From: a virus
Virus record (IMG/VR): IMGVR_UViG_3300012925_000010
Span: 1-36,081 of that record
Direction: 5' to 3' (one strand)
DNA length: 36,081 nucleotides
This document shows, one piece after another, positions 1 to 9,639 of the stretch. Below the pieces are notes generated by a model, which was not told the DNA's origin, searched no databases, and was given only the letters and a program-made list of their open reading frames with translations. The position numbers and the translations under genes are program-made. How positions within the stretch are numbered: position 1 is the first letter of the stretch; every line of letters begins with the position of its first letter.

Positions 1-1621
1 CCTGCGGATCGAAGTCGCCGCGCGAGATCGCCCCCACCGCGGGAGCCGCGCGATCCTCAAAATTCTGCACCCCACCGGGGACGGCTCGGCCGGTTCCCGG
101 GATCGCCGCAGCGTCGAGCCCGTTGAACCCCCCATCCGAAACCGGCATCGGCTCGTCGTCCAGCCAATCCTTGAGGCCGACGTCGCCGCCCCGTGCGTAG
201 CCGGCGACACCGCCGCCACGTGCAAAACCAACGCCGTAATCTTCGGCCGTCATACCCGGCGCCGGGTTGGCGCTCGACCCACCGTAGACGTCGCCGCCGA
301 GGAAGCTGCCGCCACCCCACGCATCGCCGCTGAGCCCGCCGAGCCCCGCCGACGAGGCGCCGCTCCAATCCAGCCCCTGAAGCCCTTTGCCGACGCCGCT
401 GACGCCGCTGGCGATCTTGCTGTAGTCTTGCGCTGTCGGCTGCCCGGATGACCCCGACGAGCCCGGCGCGCTCGCGTGCGGCGCTCCAGAGCCGCCATGG
501 ATTTGCATCTCCGGTATCCAGCCCTTGGCTCCGGCCCACGGAGTGCCGCCAACGCCGCCGCCCGTGGCGCGCTCGACAGCGTCGTCGGTGGCTCCCTTCA
601 GATCGACATAGTTCAGGCCGCCAAAGCCCTTCTGCACGGCATCAGGGTGGTCCTCCCGAACCTCCTGCGCAATGAGGCCGATGTGGTAGCCGGGCTGGCC
701 CTTGTAGCGATAGCGATAGATGTTCTGGCCGTCGTTGGTCGTGCCGATTTTCTCGATGTCCTCCTTGGCGCGACGGTCAGACAGGAACATGCCCGCGGCC
801 GACAGGCCGGCGCCGAGGTATTGAGCCGTCTGATTCGGCGCCGGCCCGGTGGTGGTGCCGCTCGACGTGCCGCCCAGGTTGGAGCCGACGCCGGTGCCGA
901 GCCCAGCCAGCCACTGGGTCTGCTGGTAGGGGTAAGCCTGCGCTTGTTGATATTGGCCGTAGAGCGCGTCGAGTTGCTGCTGCTGGGTCTGCTGCTGCAG
1001 CGTGCCGGCGTTGATCTGCGCGCCGGCTCCGGCGAGGGCCGCGTTCTGCCCTTGGATACCGTAGTTCGCCAGCGCATTGGCGCCAGCGAGCCCGGTCTGC
1101 TGCTGCTGCTGGGCGGCGCCGAGCGCCTGCGAATAGCCTTGGCTATAGAGCCCGGCGGTGGTGGACGCGGCGGTGCGCCCCTGCTGGCCCGCGAGAATAC
1201 CCTTCGCCACACCGGTGGCGTTGCCGCCGAGCGCGCCCTGTGCGATCTGGTTACCCTGCAGGCCGGCCATCGCAGATGCATTGTCGTGCTGCATCTGCGC
1301 CGACGTCGCGTCCACCACAGACTGTGTGTACGGATTGAGATATTGCTGGATTTGGTCGCCGGTGATGGCCCCTGTCGAGGCCCCGGCTAGGCCGGCGGCT
1401 TGCTGAATATACGGGTTCGCGTAGTTGGCGTTCGCGTTGATGCCGGCGATGCCGGCCTGCTGCTGCGCATTGACCGGTGCGGTGAGATCGCCGGTGTAGG
1501 CCTGATACGGGGTCGAGGCGACGCCCTGCGCGCGGGACAGGATGTCGCGATAGAGCGATGCGGCCTGCGGATCGGCGGACGATGACGACTGCGTGCTGGT
1601 GCTCTGCGAGCCTTTGCCCAA
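1..1621 (-). CDS. Tail-fibre-like protein with S74 chaperone domain (3' end outside window)
   Basis: An open frame without stop runs from a TTG at 1619-1621 to the left edge (540 codons visible). An in-frame stop lies upstream near 1690 and no ATG or GTG lies between, while AAGGGG sits just before the TTG, so TTG is the only plausible start. Residues 1-270 are Ala/Gln/Gly rich and probably helical, with the phage-type motif NPYTQSVVDAT. Residues about 278-355 match a peptidase_S74 intramolecular chaperone domain: LSDRRAKEDIEKIG, YRYKGQPGYHIGLIAQEV, HPDAV. The catalytic Ser and Lys of this family correspond to S281 and K286. S74 domains normally trimerise a fibre and then cut themselves off. 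Here at least 180 Gly-rich residues follow, including FARGGGV and YARGGDV. It lies 84 bases downstream of the acetyltransferase gene. The virion role is inferred; the domain call is strong. Confidence 0.85.
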   Translation of the reverse strand, partial: MGKGSQSTSTQSSSSADPQAASLYRDILSRAQGVASTPYQAYTGDLTAPVNAQQQAGIAGINANANYANPYIQQAAGLAGASTGAITGDQIQQYLNPYTQSVVDATSAQMQHDNASAMAGLQGNQIAQGALGGNATGVAKGILAGQQGRTAASTTAGLYSQGYSQALGAAQQQQQTGLAGANALANYGIQGQNAALAGAGAQINAGTLQQQTQQQQLDALYGQYQQAQAYPYQQTQWLAGLGTGVGSNLGGTSSGTTTGPAPNQTAQYLGAGLSAAGMFLSDRRAKEDIEKIGTTNDGQNIYRYRYKGQPGYHIGLIAQEVREDHPDAVQKGFGGLNYVDLKGATDDAVERATGGGVGGTPWAGAKGWIPEMQIHGGSGAPHASAPGSSGSSGQPTAQDYSKIASGVSGVGKGLQGLDWSGASSAGLGGLSGDAWGGGSFLGGDVYGGSSANPAPGMTAEDYGVGFARGGGVAGYARGGDVGLKDWLDDEPMPVSDGGFNGLDAAAIPGTGRAVPGGVQNFEDRAAPAVGAISRGDFDPQ

Positions 1622-1705: not shown

Positions 1706-2179
1706 TCAGGCCGGCAATACCAGTGGGTGCGGCGGTTTGTGAATGAAGTAGCCACCAACCGGGTCACCGAGCTGACGTCGGTATAGCTCGATCTTCGCCT
1801 TGGTGCGCTCGTTCGCAACGACACCGATCACGAGCGGAATACCAATCTCGTTGGAGCACCGCTTGGCGAAGGAGATCATGTCCTTGGCGTGCGTTGACCG
1901 CCGGTAGTCCGGCAGTACGTAATTCATGATCTCCTCCAAGCACCAGTCTTCGGTGTACCAGAATTGGGCAATCAACAGCATGATCATGCCCTCGATCCGA
2001 TCCTTGCCGACAAGCCCGATGATGGCGTCCCGTTTGCCAAAGGCGCGCTCGACCATGGCCACCACCTTCTCCGCCCCATAGGAGAATTGGCCGTTCTCGC
2101 TATGGTTTTTGACGCAAATGTCCAAGATCGTATCTCGGTCGATGGGCCGCGCCTTGCGGACAGATAGGGTTGTCAGCAT
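1706..2179 (-). CDS. GNAT-family N-acetyltransferase
   Basis: This 157-residue protein looks like a compact Gcn5-related N-acetyltransferase, which transfers acetyl from acetyl-CoA to an amine. The order of elements fits the fold: an N-terminal strand (LSVRKARPIDRDTI), a helical stretch with ENGQFSYGAEKV, the central strands IIGLVGKDRIEGMIMLL, and a C-terminal part IPLVIGVVANERTKAKIELY RRQLGDPVGGYF typical of the motif-B end of GNATs. The pyrophosphate-binding R/Q-x-x-G-x-G/A loop is not classical (the stretch DYRRSTHAKD occupies that position). The ATG overlaps the stop of the preceding gene as TGATG, indicating coupling. Such genes are common at the end of structural modules in alphaproteobacterial phages; the substrate is unknown. 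Confidence 0.7.
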   Translation of the reverse strand: MLTTLSVRKARPIDRDTILDICVKNHSENGQFSYGAEKVVAMVERAFGKRDAIIGLVGKDRIEGMIMLLIAQFWYTEDWCLEEIMNYVLPDYRRSTHAKDMISFAKRCSNEIGIPLVIGVVANERTKAKIELYRRQLGDPVGGYFIHKPPHPLVLPA

Positions 2180-2457: not shown

Positions 2458-5400
2458 TCAATCCTGTGCTGGAGGCGCCAAATTGCGCAGCGTATTGACG
2501 TGCTCTTTGCGAGACGAGGTCTGCCACGCATCGAGATAGCGATGACCCTCGCCGAGATCGCCCCAACGACCGGTGATGTCCTCCGGGTGGATAACGTATT
2601 CGCCGTCCGCTGCATAGATGGGGACCGCGCCGCCGCGCGCACGTTTCACCGGGTCTTTCGGCGCGGCGTGGCTCTTGGCCGAGGCCGGGAACATCTTGTC
2701 CAGTTTCTTGAAGCCAGCGAGTGTGTTGCCCTCTCCCATCGACGACACATGATCCGAAGTGAGCACATAGGCGCCGTCTGGCACCTCCATCGGCACCTTG
2801 TCGGCACGACCATCGGTGCTGCCCATAATGGCACCAACGTGCACCTTGCCGCCCTTGGCGCGCCGGATGCCACGGGCCACCTTCATCGCTGCGTTCACTC
2901 CGCCCCCTGCCGCGCGCTGGTCGCCGCGCATTGCATCCATCGCCGCGGGTGCGGCCATAGCGCCACCTAGCATGCCGGCACCGGCCTTGCCCGACAAAAC
3001 GAGATCGCGAGCCTGCTCTGGCGAGATGCGCAAGCGGCGTGCGGCCACCATGATCTGCTTCGCCAGCAGTTCAAGTTTTGGGGCGCCCAGCTCGCTCTCG
3101 ACGCCCGTCTGCGGCCCCAGCGCCGTCCATAGGCGGGCCTGCGCCGGCACGCTCTCCAAGCCAGCAGGGCCTGCCACCTCGTGCTGCCACCACGGCTGCA
3201 GCGTCTGATATTCGCCGCGTGAGAACGACCCCTGCACGTCGGTTGGCCCCTTGCGGGTATCGGAGAGCCCGACGCCGCGGCTGAAGTGCGCATCCCCAAC
3301 GGGGCCCGACGTCTGGAAACCGGTCTCAGGCACGCCCGAGGCGTGGGAATAGAGAGGAACCTTCGGTGCCTCACTCTGGATCGCTCCAGTGTCGAAGAAC
3401 TTCTGCATCGGGCCAGCTTGGGCCGTCCGATGATACGGATGGCCGCCGATGTACTGCATATCGCCGGGGAAACCGGCGGTGTTGTAGCGCATACCTTCGG
3501 GCACGCCGGCAAACTTGGTGAAGTCGGAGAACCTGCCCTGATTTTTCAGCCAATGCGCTGAGGTCCCGCGTTGGATTTCCGTCATCACGTCGGAGCCCGG
3601 AGATGCCATCGCGGTCGTGGTGTTCAGCGCCCTATAGCGCTTCGCCGCCTCCTCGGGGCCAAACATCTGCTCCATCCGTTTGTACACTGGGTCCATGATG
3701 TACCAAGCGTCGGCGGTGCGCAGACCTTCGTGGCGGCCGGCCTCGCCGAGGATGTCTTGGAGGCGCTGGGTGTTTTGAGGGGTCTGGATATTTTGCGCCG
3801 AAAGCGAGCCGCGCGGGTTGGAGGACAGCCGAAGATTCGGCCCCTCGTTACCAACGCGGCCCTTCGCCATGTCACGCAGGTCGCCGCGCGTAACGCCGAA
3901 CAATTGCTTCATCGCCGGGTCTTCGGGTCCCACGCGGGCGGCAGCCTCCTCGGCAATGATGCGAGGGCCACGGTAGATGCCGGGATACATCATGCGATGG
4001 GGCTCAGCGACTGTCTGGACCGATAGGTCCGGCGGATTCTCGACGCCCTTGTTGTAGATGTGGCTGCCACCCTCGGTGAACTCGGGCTCCGCGTACTTCC
4101 GTTGACGGACCTTGCGCGCCACCTCCATCGCCGAGCCGGTGTCGTCGGCCATGCGTCGCACCGGCCCCGACCCGAGAGCCATCTCGGACGGCATCATGCG
4201 CACGCCGGCGACGGCGCCGGTGCCCATCGTGTTCAACGCAGCATCGCGCGCCCAGCTTCGGGACAGCTTCCCGCGCTGGTCCTCGTACCAACTTGCTTCC
4301 TCCGACCCCTCCGGGTACGGGTTTTGGGCCATCAGTCGACCGGGCCCTCGGACCAGATCGGCGGCGCCCTCGGCTATATGCTTGACGATCGGATTGGCAA
4401 AAGTTTCCGGCATCATCGCCGCCTCGTCTTCCGGCGACAGATCGGCGGCTCCGCCCGAGGCGCGTACCTTCCTGGCAACACCGAGCGCATTGCTGACGGC
4501 GCCTCCGCGCGCACGGCGCTCGCCACCATCAGCGGCGGCAACGCCAGCGGCCGGGATACCGGCCACGCCATACTTGCGCAACACCTTCAGCATCTTGTCA
4601 TCGAACATCACATAGTTGCGTGATCCCCTCTGGCCCGGCGCGCGCGAGCCAGCGTCCGGATAGTGCAGGCCCGGCACACCGAGATCGCGCAGCCGCTGCG
4701 AGGCCCGCACATTACCCTCGGTCTCGTTTTTCGCCGGCAGGCCCATGCGCTTGTATATTTCATTACCTGGGATCGATGAATGACCGGCCTGCTCCAACGC
4801 CAGCAATCGACCCTCAAGACCAGCTCTAACGCCCGGCAACAACGGCTGCTTGGGTTTGTGATAGTAGTGGCCTCTCGCCAGCATGCTCTTGATGTCGTCG
4901 ACCCGCTTCTTGACGTGCGTCTCCATCGGAGGGCCGACGCGGTCCTGCACATGCTGGGACTGCTGGTTGAATGGAGCCGCGTAGTCGAGCATATGCTCCG
5001 GGTTCACGTCCATGCCGACCTGATACATATGGCCCGTCGAACGCTCCGGATCATTGAGATAGGCGATGCGGCGATCGTATTCCTTGATCATATTGGTGGT
5101 GGCTTTGTCGGTCTCGCCACCAGCGATCATATCGTCGCGCAGGCCAGCGTACTTGTGAGCGAGAAGCGCCGCGTCGCCCCCCACATCCGACAGGTGAGAC
5201 CCGATCGTCGATCCTACCTCCTGCAGCCGGTACTTCTTGAGCAGCGGGTCTTGCCGGGTGGCGAGTTGGTGACGGTACCACTCACTGACCGGCTCATGAC
5301 CAGCGAAGTAGAGCCCGTGGCCGTAGGCCTGATTCCCTTCACCCGAACCGATCTTGGAGATATCGAACCGATCGAACGAATGCGGCGTGCCGTGATAGAC

Positions 5401-7359
5401 CATCACCGGCTCCGGCGAGCCGCGGTCCCGCATTGTCCACTCAGGCAGCAGCCCCACCTTCTGATCGGCATAGGTGGTGTCAGCCGCACTCGCGCTCCGG
5501 TTCTTCTCTCCGTGCGGACCGTAGTTGACCCACGAATTTTGCCCACGGGTCTCCGTCGTCATCGCCGGCCGCGCGACGTCTGAGTACATTTGCGCATGCG
5601 TGCGCCACGCATTGTCCTCACCGGCCGCGCGGAAGCCGTGGCCTTCCTTCAGGTGCCCGAAGTAGTCGTGCACCACGCGAAACATATCGTTGGCCAGCAG
5701 ATCGTGGTCGCCGATCTTTTCGCCGGTCTTGCGCAGCATCGGTGACGTCGCTGGCTCGCGGACCATTTTCTGGCCCCACTGATCGGCCTTCCCTACGGGC
5801 TCGAAGCCGAACCTCTTGTAGAAGTCGACAAGCCTGCGCTGCGTAGCAGGCTCCTCATCATGGGCCAGCAGCTCAATCTTCTTAGCGGAAGTATCGGCCG
5901 CCCCCGTCACCTCGCGCATCGTTTCGGTGCCAGCCCCCCTTTTGCCGTCGCGATTACCGATCCACGACAGAGCCCAACCATCCGGGCCTTGCTCCATTTC
6001 CAGTGACACACCCCGCTCTTTAGCCCTTGATGTTAGCGATTCGATGGACGACGAGCCAAAGCCACTCTCAGTCGGATAGAACCAGAGATGATTATTTTCC
6101 GCGACATCGCGCGCAGCCATCCGAGGATTTGCAGCATACGGGTCCGGCATATCCGCGGGGATCGGCTCGATCTTCAGGCCGGTCTTCTTGATCGCCTGAT
6201 ACTGCGCAGCCGTCTCGTTGATCAGGGCGTCGTAGGAGGCCTTCGTCGCCGGGTCGTTGGGGGTGTGCTTCATCTCCTCGTAGGCCTGCGCGATGGCCCG
6301 CGAGTGCTCCGGATCGAGCGGATGATATTTGGTTGGCGGCGTGTACGGACGGTCGGGGTGAGTCGTCCGCATGTAGTCCTCGGCGACGTCGTGCACCTTT
6401 CCGATCGGACCCGGGACGAAATGCTCCTCGCCAATCTTGAGCGCGCCCGGAAGGCCCTCTAGCGGCTTTCGTTCACCGGCCCACCGCGCTGCCGCTGCCT
6501 GTGCTTCTGGTAGGCCGCCTGCTCCTGACGCCCCTCCTCCTCCGGGTCCCACTTCTCCGGCTGGGGCGGCTGCTGCTGATCCTTCGGGTACGGCTCGCGG
6601 TCCATCTGATGCTCCCGCGGCAAGGCGCCGCTCGTTTTCCAATACCTCATCTACGGCAGAGAGGGAAGCCGCCCGCTTATCGGCGGCCCCGGCGCGGCGG
6701 ATGGGGCCGGCGCCCGCCACAACCTCACCAGCGGCCCGCGCTGGGGCGCCGAGGACCGTCCCGCCCATGACGTTGGCCACGCCCTCCAGCGAAGCTCCGA
6801 CCATCGGGTCGACCGGCTGCCAACCAACCCGCGGCGCGCTCACCCCAACGCCACCGAGCGGCGAGCGGGGGTCCGGTGACGTGTCCGGCGGAATGTCGGT
6901 GTAGTCCTCCCTGCGCAGACCCGGCAGCGGGTTGTTGCGCGCGGCCGTCACCGCCGCCTTCGGCAGGTCCCACGCCATATATTTCGGCATGGAGAGGACG
7001 GCTTGGCCCACCTTTGATCCAACGTCAGCCGCCCTATTGCCCCAGTCGGTACCGGGAGAAAGCTGGCCCCCATCGCCAACCAATGGTTCGCCGACGTCCG
7101 GCAGCACCTTTTCAAGCCGCTGCGGCTGGGCGGCGAGGCCCTGACGGGCGCGCGCAGCAAGATCGTCGGCGGTCTCGCGATAGGGCCCGCCATCCCATCG
7201 ATCCTCGAATGTCGCGCCGCCGCTGGCACGCTTGCGCTTGCTTCGGCGCGCGGTGTCGAGGGCTGCAGCAACGGCCTGATTCTGCGGATGACCCGTCGCC
7301 TTCATCTCGCGGATGTTCGCTGAAATCACCGAGCGCGAGGAACCCTTACGGAGCGGCAC
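2458..7359 (-). CDS. Giant polyvalent virion protein with GNAT-like and PARP/ART-like domains
   Basis: This 1633-residue protein starts at GTG behind a near-perfect AGGAGG. Visible parts, by residue: 1-45, a basic helical segment of the type RKGSSRSVISANIREMK seen at the start of many phage proteins; 60-300, Ala/Gly/Pro-rich linker; 435-535, a GNAT-like region ending LVDFYKRFGFEPVG; 555-645, a conserved phage block with NDMFRVVHDYFGH and TETRGQNSWVNYGPHGEKN; 652-930, an ADP-ribosyltransferase-like domain with YHGT (H656), GHGLYFA (Y684) and SRNYVMFDD (N915); 1125-1460, a second conserved block with PGSDVMTEIQRGT and SGVPETGFQT; 1500-1633, a tail with DGAYVLTSDHVSSMG and DGEYVIHPEDITGRWG. Six R-A-x-G-G motifs are scattered along it. 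The architecture fits the phage polyvalent proteins, thought to be packaged and injected with DNA. Packaging and enzymatic activity are inferred. Confidence 0.85.
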   Translation of the reverse strand: MPLRKGSSRSVISANIREMKATGHPQNQAVAAALDTARRSKRKRASGGATFEDRWDGGPYRETADDLAARARQGLAAQPQRLEKVLPDVGEPLVGDGGQLSPGTDWGNRAADVGSKVGQAVLSMPKYMAWDLPKAAVTAARNNPLPGLRREDYTDIPPDTSPDPRSPLGGVGVSAPRVGWQPVDPMVGASLEGVANVMGGTVLGAPARAAGEVVAGAGPIRRAGAADKRAASLSAVDEVLENERRLAAGASDGPRAVPEGSAAAAPAGEVGPGGGGASGAGGLPEAQAAAARWAGERKPLEGLPGALKIGEEHFVPGPIGKVHDVAEDYMRTTHPDRPYTPPTKYHPLDPEHSRAIAQAYEEMKHTPNDPATKASYDALINETAAQYQAIKKTGLKIEPIPADMPDPYAANPRMAARDVAENNHLWFYPTESGFGSSSIESLTSRAKERGVSLEMEQGPDGWALSWIGNRDGKRGAGTETMREVTGAADTSAKKIELLAHDEEPATQRRLVDFYKRFGFEPVGKADQWGQKMVREPATSPMLRKTGEKIGDHDLLANDMFRVVHDYFGHLKEGHGFRAAGEDNAWRTHAQMYSDVARPAMTTETRGQNSWVNYGPHGEKNRSASAADTTYADQKVGLLPEWTMRDRGSPEPVMVYHGTPHSFDRFDISKIGSGEGNQAYGHGLYFAGHEPVSEWYRHQLATRQDPLLKKYRLQEVGSTIGSHLSDVGGDAALLAHKYAGLRDDMIAGGETDKATTNMIKEYDRRIAYLNDPERSTGHMYQVGMDVNPEHMLDYAAPFNQQSQHVQDRVGPPMETHVKKRVDDIKSMLARGHYYHKPKQPLLPGVRAGLEGRLLALEQAGHSSIPGNEIYKRMGLPAKNETEGNVRASQRLRDLGVPGLHYPDAGSRAPGQRGSRNYVMFDDKMLKVLRKYGVAGIPAAGVAAADGGERRARGGAVSNALGVARKVRASGGAADLSPEDEAAMMPETFANPIVKHIAEGAADLVRGPGRLMAQNPYPEGSEEASWYEDQRGKLSRSWARDAALNTMGTGAVAGVRMMPSEMALGSGPVRRMADDTGSAMEVARKVRQRKYAEPEFTEGGSHIYNKGVENPPDLSVQTVAEPHRMMYPGIYRGPRIIAEEAAARVGPEDPAMKQLFGVTRGDLRDMAKGRVGNEGPNLRLSSNPRGSLSAQNIQTPQNTQRLQDILGEAGRHEGLRTADAWYIMDPVYKRMEQMFGPEEAAKRYRALNTTTAMASPGSDVMTEIQRGTSAHWLKNQGRFSDFTKFAGVPEGMRYNTAGFPGDMQYIGGHPYHRTAQAGPMQKFFDTGAIQSEAPKVPLYSHASGVPETGFQTSGPVGDAHFSRGVGLSDTRKGPTDVQGSFSRGEYQTLQPWWQHEVAGPAGLESVPAQARLWTALGPQTGVESELGAPKLELLAKQIMVAARRLRISPEQARDLVLSGKAGAGMLGGAMAAPAAMDAMRGDQRAAGGGVNAAMKVARGIRRAKGGKVHVGAIMGSTDGRADKVPMEVPDGAYVLTSDHVSSMGEGNTLAGFKKLDKMFPASAKSHAAPKDPVKRARGGAVPIYAADGEYVIHPEDITGRWGDLGEGHRYLDAWQTSSRKEHVNTLRNLAPPAQD

Positions 7360-7369
7360 GGTCGCCTCC

Positions 7370-7597
7370 TTAGAACGTCGAAAGAGCTACGCGACGCCAC
7401 GTACCGTCAGCCACGCAAACATAGAGAAACCCGGCCGAGGCGGCCACCTGTCCAGCGGTGCCGGCCGACGTCGAGACCGCCGGCACCGGGACCAGATTGA
7501 GGGACTTCTGGGCCAGCAGCGCCTGATAGATCAGACCGAGATTTTGCACAGCGGACGTCTGGGTCGAGTTGATCGTGTCGAGGTCTGCCGCGGCCAT
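7370..7597 (-). CDS. Short tail accessory protein
   Basis: This 75-residue protein starts at the ATG of a TGATG overlap with the tail-nozzle gene; a GTG one codon upstream is also possible. The N-terminal half is helical (NSTQTSAVQNLGLIYQALLA). The C-terminal half is a small beta module of a kind common in phage fibres and accessory proteins, with GTAGQVAASAGFLYVCVADG and TWRRVALSTF. It lies between the nozzle gene and the giant polyvalent gene, which supports a tail or virion role. No enzymatic feature is visible, and the exact role is unknown. Confidence 0.75.
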   Translation of the reverse strand: MAAADLDTINSTQTSAVQNLGLIYQALLAQKSLNLVPVPAVSTSAGTAGQVAASAGFLYVCVADGTWRRVALSTF

Positions 7598-9639
7598 CAC
7601 CGTCTCCCCTGCGCCGAGTAGCGATATCTCACATACCCCAAGCGGGAGAAACTACCAAGGTCATTGCCGGAGATGGTGACGCTGGTCAGGCCACCACGAA
7701 AGCGCGTGGTGACGTATTCTGTGGCTTGCGTCACGGTGAACGGGCCGTATGACACAGGCGTGTCGCCAGGATAATTGGCGACATGGAACGTCATATTTAT
7801 CTGAGCGGTCGAAGGCTGGCCGAACTCACCGAACTTGAAGTCCGGTCGCCACTGATCGACGAAGGCGTAGTCCTCGCCCTCGCCGATCCGGAAATACCCC
7901 GTCGTATAGGACCACGCTATCGGTTGGCCGGCAGCATCATTGCCCACCTCGTGCTGATAGATCACGCCGCCCGGGTTGGCGCCGATCGGCGGTCCGAGCA
8001 CGCTCTGGTCGATCCATGCCGAACGCGGCAACAGGCCATAGTCGAACGGCTGCCCCGGCTCGGTGATGTTGAACTTGACGTAGCTGTCGTTCTCGCCGTT
8101 GACGCTTGCCAACGACGGATAGAACCAACCCACCTCGTTGAACCCGGTATTCGGCATCGCGCGAACGTTCTGGATAAATGCAGTGTTGAGGTTCTGGAAA
8201 ACCGCATCCCACACCGGGCACGGGATCACCTCCACGCCGGAGCCTGCATAACGATAGAGGTTCGAGGTCCCCATCCAATAGACCCCACCGCGCAGCTGCT
8301 GCGGCGAATGCGAGGAACACGCTCCGGCACCGGCCCCGATCTTGTTGAAGCCATAGACGTTGGGAAAGCCGACGAAGTTCATCACCCACAGATCGAGATC
8401 GGTCCAGATCAGGTTCTGGTTGGAGACCGCCATCCCGGCCACGATGCGCGATCCCAACGGGATGCGGAAATTACGCGCGAGATTGGTGTCTGATGGGGTC
8501 CAGTCGAAGAAGTTTCCGCTATCACACCATTGCACCAAGAGCGGGTCTTGCAGCACGCCGATCTGCTCGCTGATGGTCGAGCCATAGGCCACCACGATCT
8601 GCGCCGATGTCGAGATGAACATGCCGGCATTGAAGATCGGGCCCGAGGCGATCAGCGTCATGTTGCCGAAGCCGCCGGTGGGGTCCCAATAATAGATGCC
8701 GCCATCCTCCGGGCAGGCGAGCAGAAGCTGGCCCCAATTGTCCGTTGTCCAGTCAGATGCTTGGATCGGTATCCCGGTTTGCACAGAGTTCACTACGCCG
8801 GTGCCGTAGCCGCCGAGACCGTAGCCGCCAATTCCGAACCCTACGCCGCCCGCGGGCGGCCCCAGCGAGATATAATAAACCAACTCGGCGTTGCCGCCAT
8901 TCATCGAGAACGAGCCCGCCGCGGTCGCCTGCGCGTTGGCTTGGATAACAAAGTGATTGGCGTCGGTGATCGATGCCGCTGTGTAGAGGCCGCTGATCGT
9001 AACGCCATTGCCGGTTGTCGGGATCGGAAAGACGATCGAATCGGCCCCTACGGTCAAACCGTGGGTGTTGAACGTCACCGAAATATTCGCGCTGTTGACC
9101 GCCGTGGTGAACACTGGAACGGCGCCGCCATTGGCTACGGTGGCCGTGGCGTTGCTGGCGGCCGTGATCCGGTAGCTATGCAGGCCGGTGACGCTGTCGA
9201 TCGGATAGAGACCGGATAGGATGATCCCGCCCACCGAGACCGGGGTATTGTAGAATACCGAATCAAATGTGGTGACCGTGTTGATGTTTGGGTCCGTAAC
9301 CAAGACACTTGGAGACCCAACCGTAGTGGAAAAATTCGGGGCGAAATCCGATACGAAAACTTGCGGCGTAATGTCGGTGAGAACGCCTCCCCGGATAACC
9401 CCGAGTTGCCGCGTGGTACCGACAGCGAGCCGGCTGACTTGGTTGAGGTCCTCCCATGCATGGAGATCGCGCGGCACGCCGGCCAGCGCCAACGGATAGA
9501 AATTGACCCAGCCACCGATCTTCTGGATCAGTCCGTCGCGATACCTGATCAACTGGCTTTGCGAAACGCCGGCCTGATTCAGGGTCGGTGTGCGCTCTAC
9601 ATTGACGCCTGGAATGAGCGTGACGCCACCGAATGGCAC
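7597..9639 (-). CDS. Tail nozzle/hub protein (P22 gp10- or T7 gp12-like)
   Basis: This 680-residue beta-rich protein starts at GTG after a GAGGAG ribosome site. Its N-terminus (PGVNVERTPTLNQAGVSQSQ LIRYRDGLIQKIGGW) and the recurring aromatic-Gly strands (WTTDNWGQLLLACPEDGG, IYYWDPTGGF, GGVYWMGTSNLYRY) resemble the beta-propeller nozzle proteins of podoviruses, which close the short tail and bind host surface or needle. Residues about 260-285 hold a Gly-Tyr-rich run (GIGGYGLGGYGTG). It is followed directly by a small accessory gene and preceded by a collar-domain fibre. Family assignment is from overall pattern rather than a single diagnostic motif. Confidence 0.7.
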   Translation of the reverse strand: MPFGGVTLIPGVNVERTPTLNQAGVSQSQLIRYRDGLIQKIGGWVNFYPLALAGVPRDLHAWEDLNQVSRLAVGTTRQLGVIRGGVLTDITPQVFVSDFAPNFSTTVGSPSVLVTDPNINTVTTFDSVFYNTPVSVGGIILSGLYPIDSVTGLHSYRITAASNATATVANGGAVPVFTTAVNSANISVTFNTHGLTVGADSIVFPIPTTGNGVTISGLYTAASITDANHFVIQANAQATAAGSFSMNGGNAELVYYISLGPPAGGVGFGIGGYGLGGYGTGVVNSVQTGIPIQASDWTTDNWGQLLLACPEDGGIYYWDPTGGFGNMTLIASGPIFNAGMFISTSAQIVVAYGSTISEQIGVLQDPLLVQWCDSGNFFDWTPSDTNLARNFRIPLGSRIVAGMAVSNQNLIWTDLDLWVMNFVGFPNVYGFNKIGAGAGACSSHSPQQLRGGVYWMGTSNLYRYAGSGVEVIPCPVWDAVFQNLNTAFIQNVRAMPNTGFNEVGWFYPSLASVNGENDSYVKFNITEPGQPFDYGLLPRSAWIDQSVLGPPIGANPGGVIYQHEVGNDAAGQPIAWSYTTGYFRIGEGEDYAFVDQWRPDFKFGEFGQPSTAQINMTFHVANYPGDTPVSYGPFTVTQATEYVTTRFRGGLTSVTISGNDLGSFSRLGYVRYRYSAQGRR

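Follow-up and report, generated by a model that had tools for sequence, protein, structure and literature searches.

A predicted virion-carried polyvalent protein of a phage, with a GNAT-like domain nested in an unnamed protein family and a domain of predicted glycosylase-like fold

The gene at positions 2458 to 7359 of the IMG/VR virus record IMGVR_UViG_3300012925_000010 raises the question of what a phage would do with a single protein of 1633 residues in which several enzyme-like regions are joined, and where such a protein would act. The whole record of 36,081 bases was analysed and is called the window here; it is complete as a record, which may be a fragment. We consider it rather probable that the gene encodes a virion-carried, injected multi-enzyme "polyvalent" protein, gene order being the evidence for packaging in the virion and injection into the host. 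In the predicted domain order, a short N-terminal element is followed by a domain termed D1 (a putative metal-type enzyme) with a GNAT-like domain in one of its loops, a putative mono-ADP-ribosyltransferase (ART) of the H-Y-D type, a domain termed D3, and C-terminal modules of virion type. All enzymatic activities of the protein are putative. It would be made late, be packed into the head beside the ejection protein, and enter a new host together with the DNA. There, host proteins would be modified by the ART, and perhaps by the GNAT too, the targets of D3 would be DNA (or RNA) bases, and D1 would act on a small metabolite, possibly one of the S-adenosylmethionine (SAM), S-adenosylhomocysteine (SAH) and homocysteine cycle.

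The class itself is known; what is unexpected is the D1 family, the nested GNAT and the glycosylase-like D3. Iyer et al. (2017; PMC5512222) describe polyvalent proteins of phages and conjugative elements as long polypeptides with disparate enzyme domains encoded among virion genes, including injected ones with H-Y-D type ART and GNAT domains; for one of its GNAT families, ART and GNAT occur in one protein. The gene in the window has this character, since its product joins at least two biochemically disparate domains in one polypeptide (D1, the GNAT insert, ART and D3) and it stands in a late, structural neighbourhood, with a relative of an ejection protein downstream and structural genes upstream. 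Compared with the proteins described there, it differs in that D1 and D3 lack Pfam matches and its GNAT is nested inside another domain. The word "glycosylase" is absent from the main text of PMC5512222, and either domain may equal one of its LPD domains.

The open reading frame (ORF) runs without interruption through 1633 codons from a GTG start at 7359 to 2458 on the minus strand, on which all features given below also lie; the plus-strand frame of the same interval has many stops. The GTG start is credible because relatives open with the same N-terminal element, for example MPLRKGSSRATISSNIREM in locus L015 (loci recovered in the searches are cited by such numbers). The first-pass annotation, which gave the protein at 2458-7359 without a strand, was right about the ORF, and its description as a polyvalent protein containing an ART is borne out by a match to Pfam ART-PolyVal, the conservation of H656 and Y684, and the class as described in PMC5512222. 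A search with the whole protein found six loci. L001 and L002 match most of it (71-72% identity in the best segment) and L003 much of it, and L004-L006 are closely similar only over residues 300-641. Domains are lost among relatives: L015 has no D3 match, and L003 keeps only the tail of D3. In Pfam, the window protein gave the ART fragment, below its cut-off, a weaker DUF3990 match at the same place, and nothing else; PHROGs gave phrog_2423 (residues 2-45), phrog_3170 (551-614) and several weaker matches; and NCBIfam and PADLOC gave no match for the whole protein.

D1 comprises residues 300-437 (6049..6462) and 533-648 (5416..5763), about 250 residues in all, and is a single domain without GNAT in 10 of 10 other aligned phage sequences. 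The conserved block that had been seen at residues 555-645 is indeed conserved, and it is the C-terminal half of D1; its reading as a stand-alone domain is ruled out because the other half precedes the GNAT. The second half matches phrog_3170 (E 6.2e-14) and carries the residues that are nearly invariant in 175 distinct D1 rows: among rows with a letter at the position, H564 is present in 173/173, D565 in 172/173, H569 in 173/173, E581 in 171/172, H588 in 168/171, and E603 and Q607 in 171/171 each. In an AF2 (AlphaFold2) model these residues fall on three consecutive helices, and the set resembles a metal-type or catalytic site. The core of D1 is modelled well (pLDDT mostly above 90, in both its first half and the combined model of D1 and GNAT). 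A fold search of this combined model in BFVD returned 20 significant matches, all phage proteins; the names of some refer to ART, NAT, head-morphogenesis or large-polyvalent domains, and no activity is named for D1. Pfam found no D1 family in ten D1-bearing proteins, those with D1 only giving weak matches below cut-off (the lowest E, 0.0097, being that of DUF1989 in L010). A relationship to HD-domain proteins or aromatic-amino-acid hydroxylases, considered for the HDxxGH motif, is unsupported in Pfam, PDB sequences and folds, although the PDB comparison was dominated by the GNAT part and barely probed the D1 core. No paper on D1 or D3 was found in a literature search, in which families without a name cannot be searched by name. 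D1 is a large family, unnamed in the libraries searched and without a Pfam model. An alignment-based scan of viral sequences gave at least 599 stretches; at least 589 were confirmed, and the top 80 of those were used. A scan of one bacterial or archaeal genome per species gave 86 stretches in 79 cellular loci.

The position of the GNAT inside D1 is seen from the spans of these relatives. One continuous profile match covers D1 in 169 of the 175 distinct segments, some of which are fragments. In five others D1 spans 354-363 residues, compared with at most 269 in the rest, which gives an insert of about 95-105 residues at a single site; the sixth split segment, L164, is looser. The inserts of L016, L021, L023 and L028 are 43-53% identical to one another (over segments that include a little flanking D1) and unlike the GNAT. 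Since the GNAT in the window and the unrelated insert in these four share the site, the D1 loop accepts unrelated domains. The second insert is a domain of about 100 residues without a name (LNIGL...SDTEPT...), and in L052, L079, L082 and L088 it lies beside D1, not within it.

The GNAT-like stretch itself (residues 438-532, 5764..6048, GAGTETM...FYKRFGFEPVG) had been taken for the end of the protein. Its GNAT-like sequence stands; its place does not, for it is an internal, nested insert of about 95 residues. It is missing from L001-L006. The GNAT query reached 79 stretches in 71 viral loci, L243 being recovered solely by way of the flanking D1. Among the loci examined, three ORFs combine such a GNAT with D1, the nested arrangement being confined to that of the window, and 15 distinct ORFs other than the window's have this GNAT together with an ART. 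The window protein has no Pfam GNAT match, and relatives give a mixed result: with a cut-off of 20.7 bits for Acetyltransf_1, L192 (20.9) and L200 (22.7) pass, two of four GNAT-bearing relatives scanned, and the other two, L177 and L178, are below every Pfam GNAT cut-off. PDB sequence searches with the ART, the GNAT insert and the other D1 insert gave nothing at E below 0.5.

The ART domain (residues 650-935, 4555..5412) contains the motif YHGT...GHGLYFA at residues 655-686. Searches at E 1e-8 matched 53 ORFs, of which 33, the window's included, are distinct and span the domain; one ART profile leaked into D1, and its matches inside D1 and its ART total were excluded. In the alignment of these 33, H656 is found in 31 (the rows without it are L003 and L251) and Y684 and N915 in all, and an Asp or Glu follows F919 within five residues in 33/33, by a loose test. 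The His, Tyr and acidic residue of an H-Y-D type ART are thus largely conserved in sequence; the assignment of the triad follows PMC5512222. The domain shares with ART-PolyVal (PF18760) and phage T4 Alt the ADP-ribosyltransferase motif and the predicted packaging of an ART in the head. According to PMC5512222, the active site of T4 Alt is R-S-E, unlike that of the window ART.

The second conserved block of the first-pass annotation, at residues 1125-1460, corresponds to D3 (residues 1110-1470, 2950..4032). A single-sequence scan found D3 in two loci and an alignment-based scan in 72 loci of 164 stretches. A tblastn search of 50,697 phage records with the window D3 found nothing at E 0.01, and no PHROG family matched more than one of 33 D3 members (best E 0.0011). 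An AF2 model from 33 sequences is helical, with pLDDT 86.1 and pTM 0.86. When VIA-align was run over 990 Foldseek candidates, 21 entries were listed. In 14 of the first 15 (Z 5.6-11.6) the match is an 8-oxoguanine (8-oxoG) glycosylase, endonuclease III (EndoIII), MutY or MagIII, the exception being DUF2419 in sixth place. A thymidine-hypermodification enzyme of a phage follows at rank 16 and MutY at rank 17; the entries at ranks 18-21 are unrelated (Z at most 3.0). The top three scores, 11.6, 11.4 and 11.2, are all to 8-oxoG glycosylases, with up to 181 residues aligned and rmsd 3.0. The predicted helical model thus has the overall HhH-GPD fold, and D3 is predicted to have an OGG/EndoIII-like DNA-glycosylase fold. 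K1333, D1356, H1358 and R1361 are present in 54 of the 54 rows (of 58) with a letter there. This conserved set, with D1356-A-H1358, resembles the K...VDTHxxR of EndoIII-type cellular proteins, in which the Lys and the Asp have catalytic roles. K1333 and D1356 are probably the catalytic pair of OGG/EndoIII-like glycosylases, a correspondence suggested by their order and their helices in the model. OGG2, OGG1, AGOG, EndoIII, MutY and MagIII share with D3 the predicted fold and an invariant Lys and Asp-x-His at comparable positions. D3 differs from them in having no detectable sequence homology, no LPGVG hairpin and a Lys-Asp spacing of 23; the spacing in HhH-GPD glycosylases is 18-19. Both conserved blocks had been described as without known function, a statement that can now be narrowed to a glycosylase-like predicted fold for D3 and a large family found beside sulphur-amino-acid and SAH genes for D1.

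Several results weigh against the reading of the protein as a multi-enzyme effector. Structure prediction modelled the GNAT insert poorly (pLDDT about 35-68). In motif A of the GNAT, the G-A-G is retained and the preceding Arg/Gln seems to be lost, as read from the alignment. The match of the ART to PF18760 (E 4.3e-5) covers only 47 residues, 650-696, and scores 24.7 bits against a cut-off of 31.2; because of this score, the domain is described as an ART of that type and is not filed as a member. Foldseek found no significant PDB match for the model of D1 with GNAT, a comparison in which the core of D1 was barely tested because the GNAT part dominated it. For D3, too, Foldseek by itself returned nothing significant from the PDB, and a Z of 11.6 falls in the range that VIA-align produces for helical models lacking a clear match. 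Since Z alone proves little, the fold argument for D3 rests on the consistency of the list and on the gap to the unrelated rows. Comparison by hhalign gave a probability of 0.2% for D3 with EndoIII/MutY and about 1% with Ogg2 profiles (0.3-0.5% for two unrelated profiles), and so no sequence link to either; an LPGVG-type hairpin (L-P-G-V/I-G) before the Lys is in no row of the D3 alignment, the window having QSEAP; and Pfam HhH-GPD matches neither the window D3 nor four other D3 proteins. As no sequence relationship is detected, D3 is said here to fold, and probably to work, like HhH-GPD enzymes and not to be one of them. Finally, Pfam finds no processing peptidase domain in the window protein.

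The domains of the window protein are also found together in other phages. There are 83 D3 loci, 53 of them distinct, and D1 is present in 16. Because some D3 loci were fetched through D1, a fairer count is 8 of the 45 distinct loci newly found by the alignment-based D3 scan, with about 13 kb examined per locus and some of these D1 matches partial. In L076, L300 and L310, ART, D1 and D3 lie side by side as separate genes; D1 and D3 are fused without ART in L283 and L289, and ART and D3 are neighbours in L292 and L299. Small stand-alone versions of D3 occur, for example in L299 and L264. In seven loci picked by eye (L064, L076, L260, L283, L298, L299 and L300), the neighbours were named by PHROGs. 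The order is portal-ART-D1-D3 in L076 and L300, terminase-portal-ART-D3 in L299 and terminase-portal-D1-D3 in L064; the portal directly precedes the fused D1-D3 in L283 and lies before D3 in L298. In L260, a relative of a DNA ejection protein (E 3.6e-5) is three genes upstream of D3. ARTs have been reported near terminase, portal and head genes (PMC9503650), and the Sulfitobacter phage phiGT1 has an ART gene close to that of the portal. In Synechococcus phage MinM2 and Planktothrix phage Pag-Yong1, D1 is part of a giant protein. D1 also occurs alone. PHROG 3170, the profile of which has 433 positions, is of the same length as mycobacteriophage Colt gp97, which is 41.6% identical to the window over query residues 530-614 and, unlike the window protein, is the product of a separate 433-codon gene, with neither ART nor D3, in a genome of 158.5 kb. 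In Streptomyces phage Dagobah, a gene of only 188 codons close to the terminal repeat (L013 1734-2300) encodes D1 and no other domain; the genes around it are hypothetical, and its product would be convenient for study.

The remaining parts of the protein (in full 2458..7359) are elements at its ends and linkers. The N-terminal element (residues 1-48, 7216..7359, V/M-PLRKGSS...PQNQAVAAAL) is covered by a small PHROG family of 52 positions, phrog_2423 (E 1.2e-11 over 2-45), and phmmer matched it in L015, L019, L020/L250 and L178. This element is N-terminal in the window protein, L015 and L019, and C-terminal (residues 411-451) in L178, an ART-GNAT protein; it may be a tag for loading into the virion. 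The linker at residues 60-299 (6463..7182) is variable, rich in Ala, Gly and Pro in its second half, and kept only in pieces; it has 12 ORF matches, a count that takes in the window ORF itself and repeated entries of a single contig. A second linker, residues 940-975 (4435..4542), has two R-x-GG-type repeats, and the query made from the C-terminal part also matches residues 943-971 of P0001, the window protein. Such R-x-GG linkers between domains could be processing or hinge sites. The C-terminal modules (residues 1499-1612, 2524..2865, found by phmmer) consist of R-x-GG followed by PDGAYV/DGEYVI elements, which we take to recall the repeats of tail tape-measure proteins. They recur in L008 (1982-2893), in a gene near a cyanophage's giant D1 protein.

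Downstream and similarly oriented are, in order, a gene of 91 codons that matches no family, a separate acetyltransferase (GNAT) gene (1706..2179, phrog_1249, E 2.5e-10; no Pfam match at E 1e-3), and the relative of a DNA ejection or virion protein (1..1621, phrog_4287, E 4.4e-33), which runs off the record. Upstream are a 76-codon gene, the C-terminal end of which matches tail proteins, a virion structural protein gene (7597..9639, phrog_3287, E 3.1e-47) and tail proteins. The record also has portal, major head protein and terminase genes.

D1 is found in cells as well, where its neighbours may hint at a substrate. Neighbour names in the 79 cellular loci were confirmed by Pfam on representatives only. 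In 11 of them, an AdoHcyase-like NAD protein is adjacent to D1 in the same direction (L113 and L115 being one assembly), and DUF3293 is also present in 10 of these 11. The cassette of AdoHcyase-like protein, D1 and DUF3293 is seen, for example, in L112 (3793-6127), L116 (3520-5859) and L120 (4863-7227), and in Actinophytocola (L117 3747-6188) all three are one polypeptide; the cassette looks like a metabolic operon. In a tree of 97 D1 rows, 10 cellular rows linked to SAH hydrolase cluster (support 0.85); a viral clade was not used because its support is only 0.43. DUF3293 as a relative of SAM lyases was set aside, the one match being weak (E 0.0021, below cut-off, in one of three stand-alone proteins) and a lead only. 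Fifteen of the 79 loci carry a gene for an aminotransferase-V and, in a different ORF, one for a Cys/Met-PLP enzyme, with homocysteine S-methyltransferase in 10 and SAH hydrolase in 4 of them. In 27 of 79, mostly of Micromonosporaceae, an N6-DNA-methylase gene is near, with a protein kinase in 25 and a UvrD-like helicase in 21; L130 (2247-8866) is an example from the stand-alone D1 genes of actinobacteria. The stand-alone D1 proteins of Aquimarina, Aureispira, Ruegeria and Micromonosporaceae have the same conserved residues as the window D1; they are single-domain and metabolic-looking, beside AdoHcyase-like, DUF3293 or Cys/Met enzymes, in contrast to the window D1 in its multi-domain protein, and show no ART or D3 match within the flanks scanned. 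A stand-alone D1 is also found in an operon of Chryseobacterium. Of the 79 loci, 16 are phage-like ORFs of more than 1000 codons. In two bacterial contigs the D1 frame is broken, with halves on two adjacent ORFs (L105 4758-5726 and L162 1556-2665), either as decaying copies or through sequence errors.

These neighbourhoods suggest that D1 could be an enzyme of the SAM/SAH/homocysteine cycle, injected to drain or reroute methyl donors, for example against methylation-dependent restriction. The AdoHcyase-like cassette with its fusion in L117, the sulphur-amino-acid genes of the 15 loci and the nearby N6-DNA-methylase genes would all agree with such a role. The link is one of association, however: the flanks examined around the 27 N6-methylase loci are free of such metabolic genes, neighbours run in differing directions in the three inspected, D1 has no fold match with its core poorly tested, and a phage D1 need not retain the substrate of its cellular relatives. 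We regard this specific role as unlikely on balance. The same tentative standing is given to D3 as a relative, with an HhH-GPD-like fold, of base-hypermodification enzymes or nucleoside/queuosine hydrolases, which would edit bases without excision. Two such enzymes are among the 17 rows with Z of at least 4.7: the phage PaMx11 5-PmdU glycinyltransferase (8z2n; 204 residues aligned at Z 4.9) and DUF2419, a queuosine enzyme (7u5a, Z 7.2). Thymidine hypermodification is a known phage trait. The closest rows, at Z 11.2-11.6, are nevertheless 8-oxoG glycosylases, and the positions in the K...D-x-H pattern agree with those of lyase-type glycosylases. D3 genes are near portal or ejection genes in 7 of 7 loci scanned, where base-synthesis genes were not searched for.

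It could also be argued that the protein serves chiefly in structure or assembly, its enzyme-like domains being degenerate or used for binding. It is located among structural genes, it has R-x-GG and DGEYVI-type elements, and L003 retains just the tail end of D3. Against this, the catalytic-type residues of D1, ART and D3 are near-invariant across diverse phages, and the domains come and go among relatives and also exist as separate genes, unlike those of a structural protein; we think this improbable, and prefer the injected multi-enzyme protein. A bolder form of the preferred reading is that D1 is a new superfamily common to phages and cells with an unseen fold, which in cells belongs to an SAH/homocysteine operon (AdoHcyase-like protein, D1 and DUF3293), and that many uncultured phages inject it fused or coupled to an ART and a glycosylase-like enzyme, so that the protein cuts host methylation and acts on DNA, the D1 loop taking up effectors; this is improbable as a whole.

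For the D1 family, the cellular relatives are the first biochemical lead. D3, if its assignment is true, puts a DNA-glycosylase-like enzyme into injected phage proteins. Since D1, ART and D3 are seen in fusion as well as in separate adjacent genes that follow the portal gene, the claim that they form a functional module can be tested on small, separable proteins.

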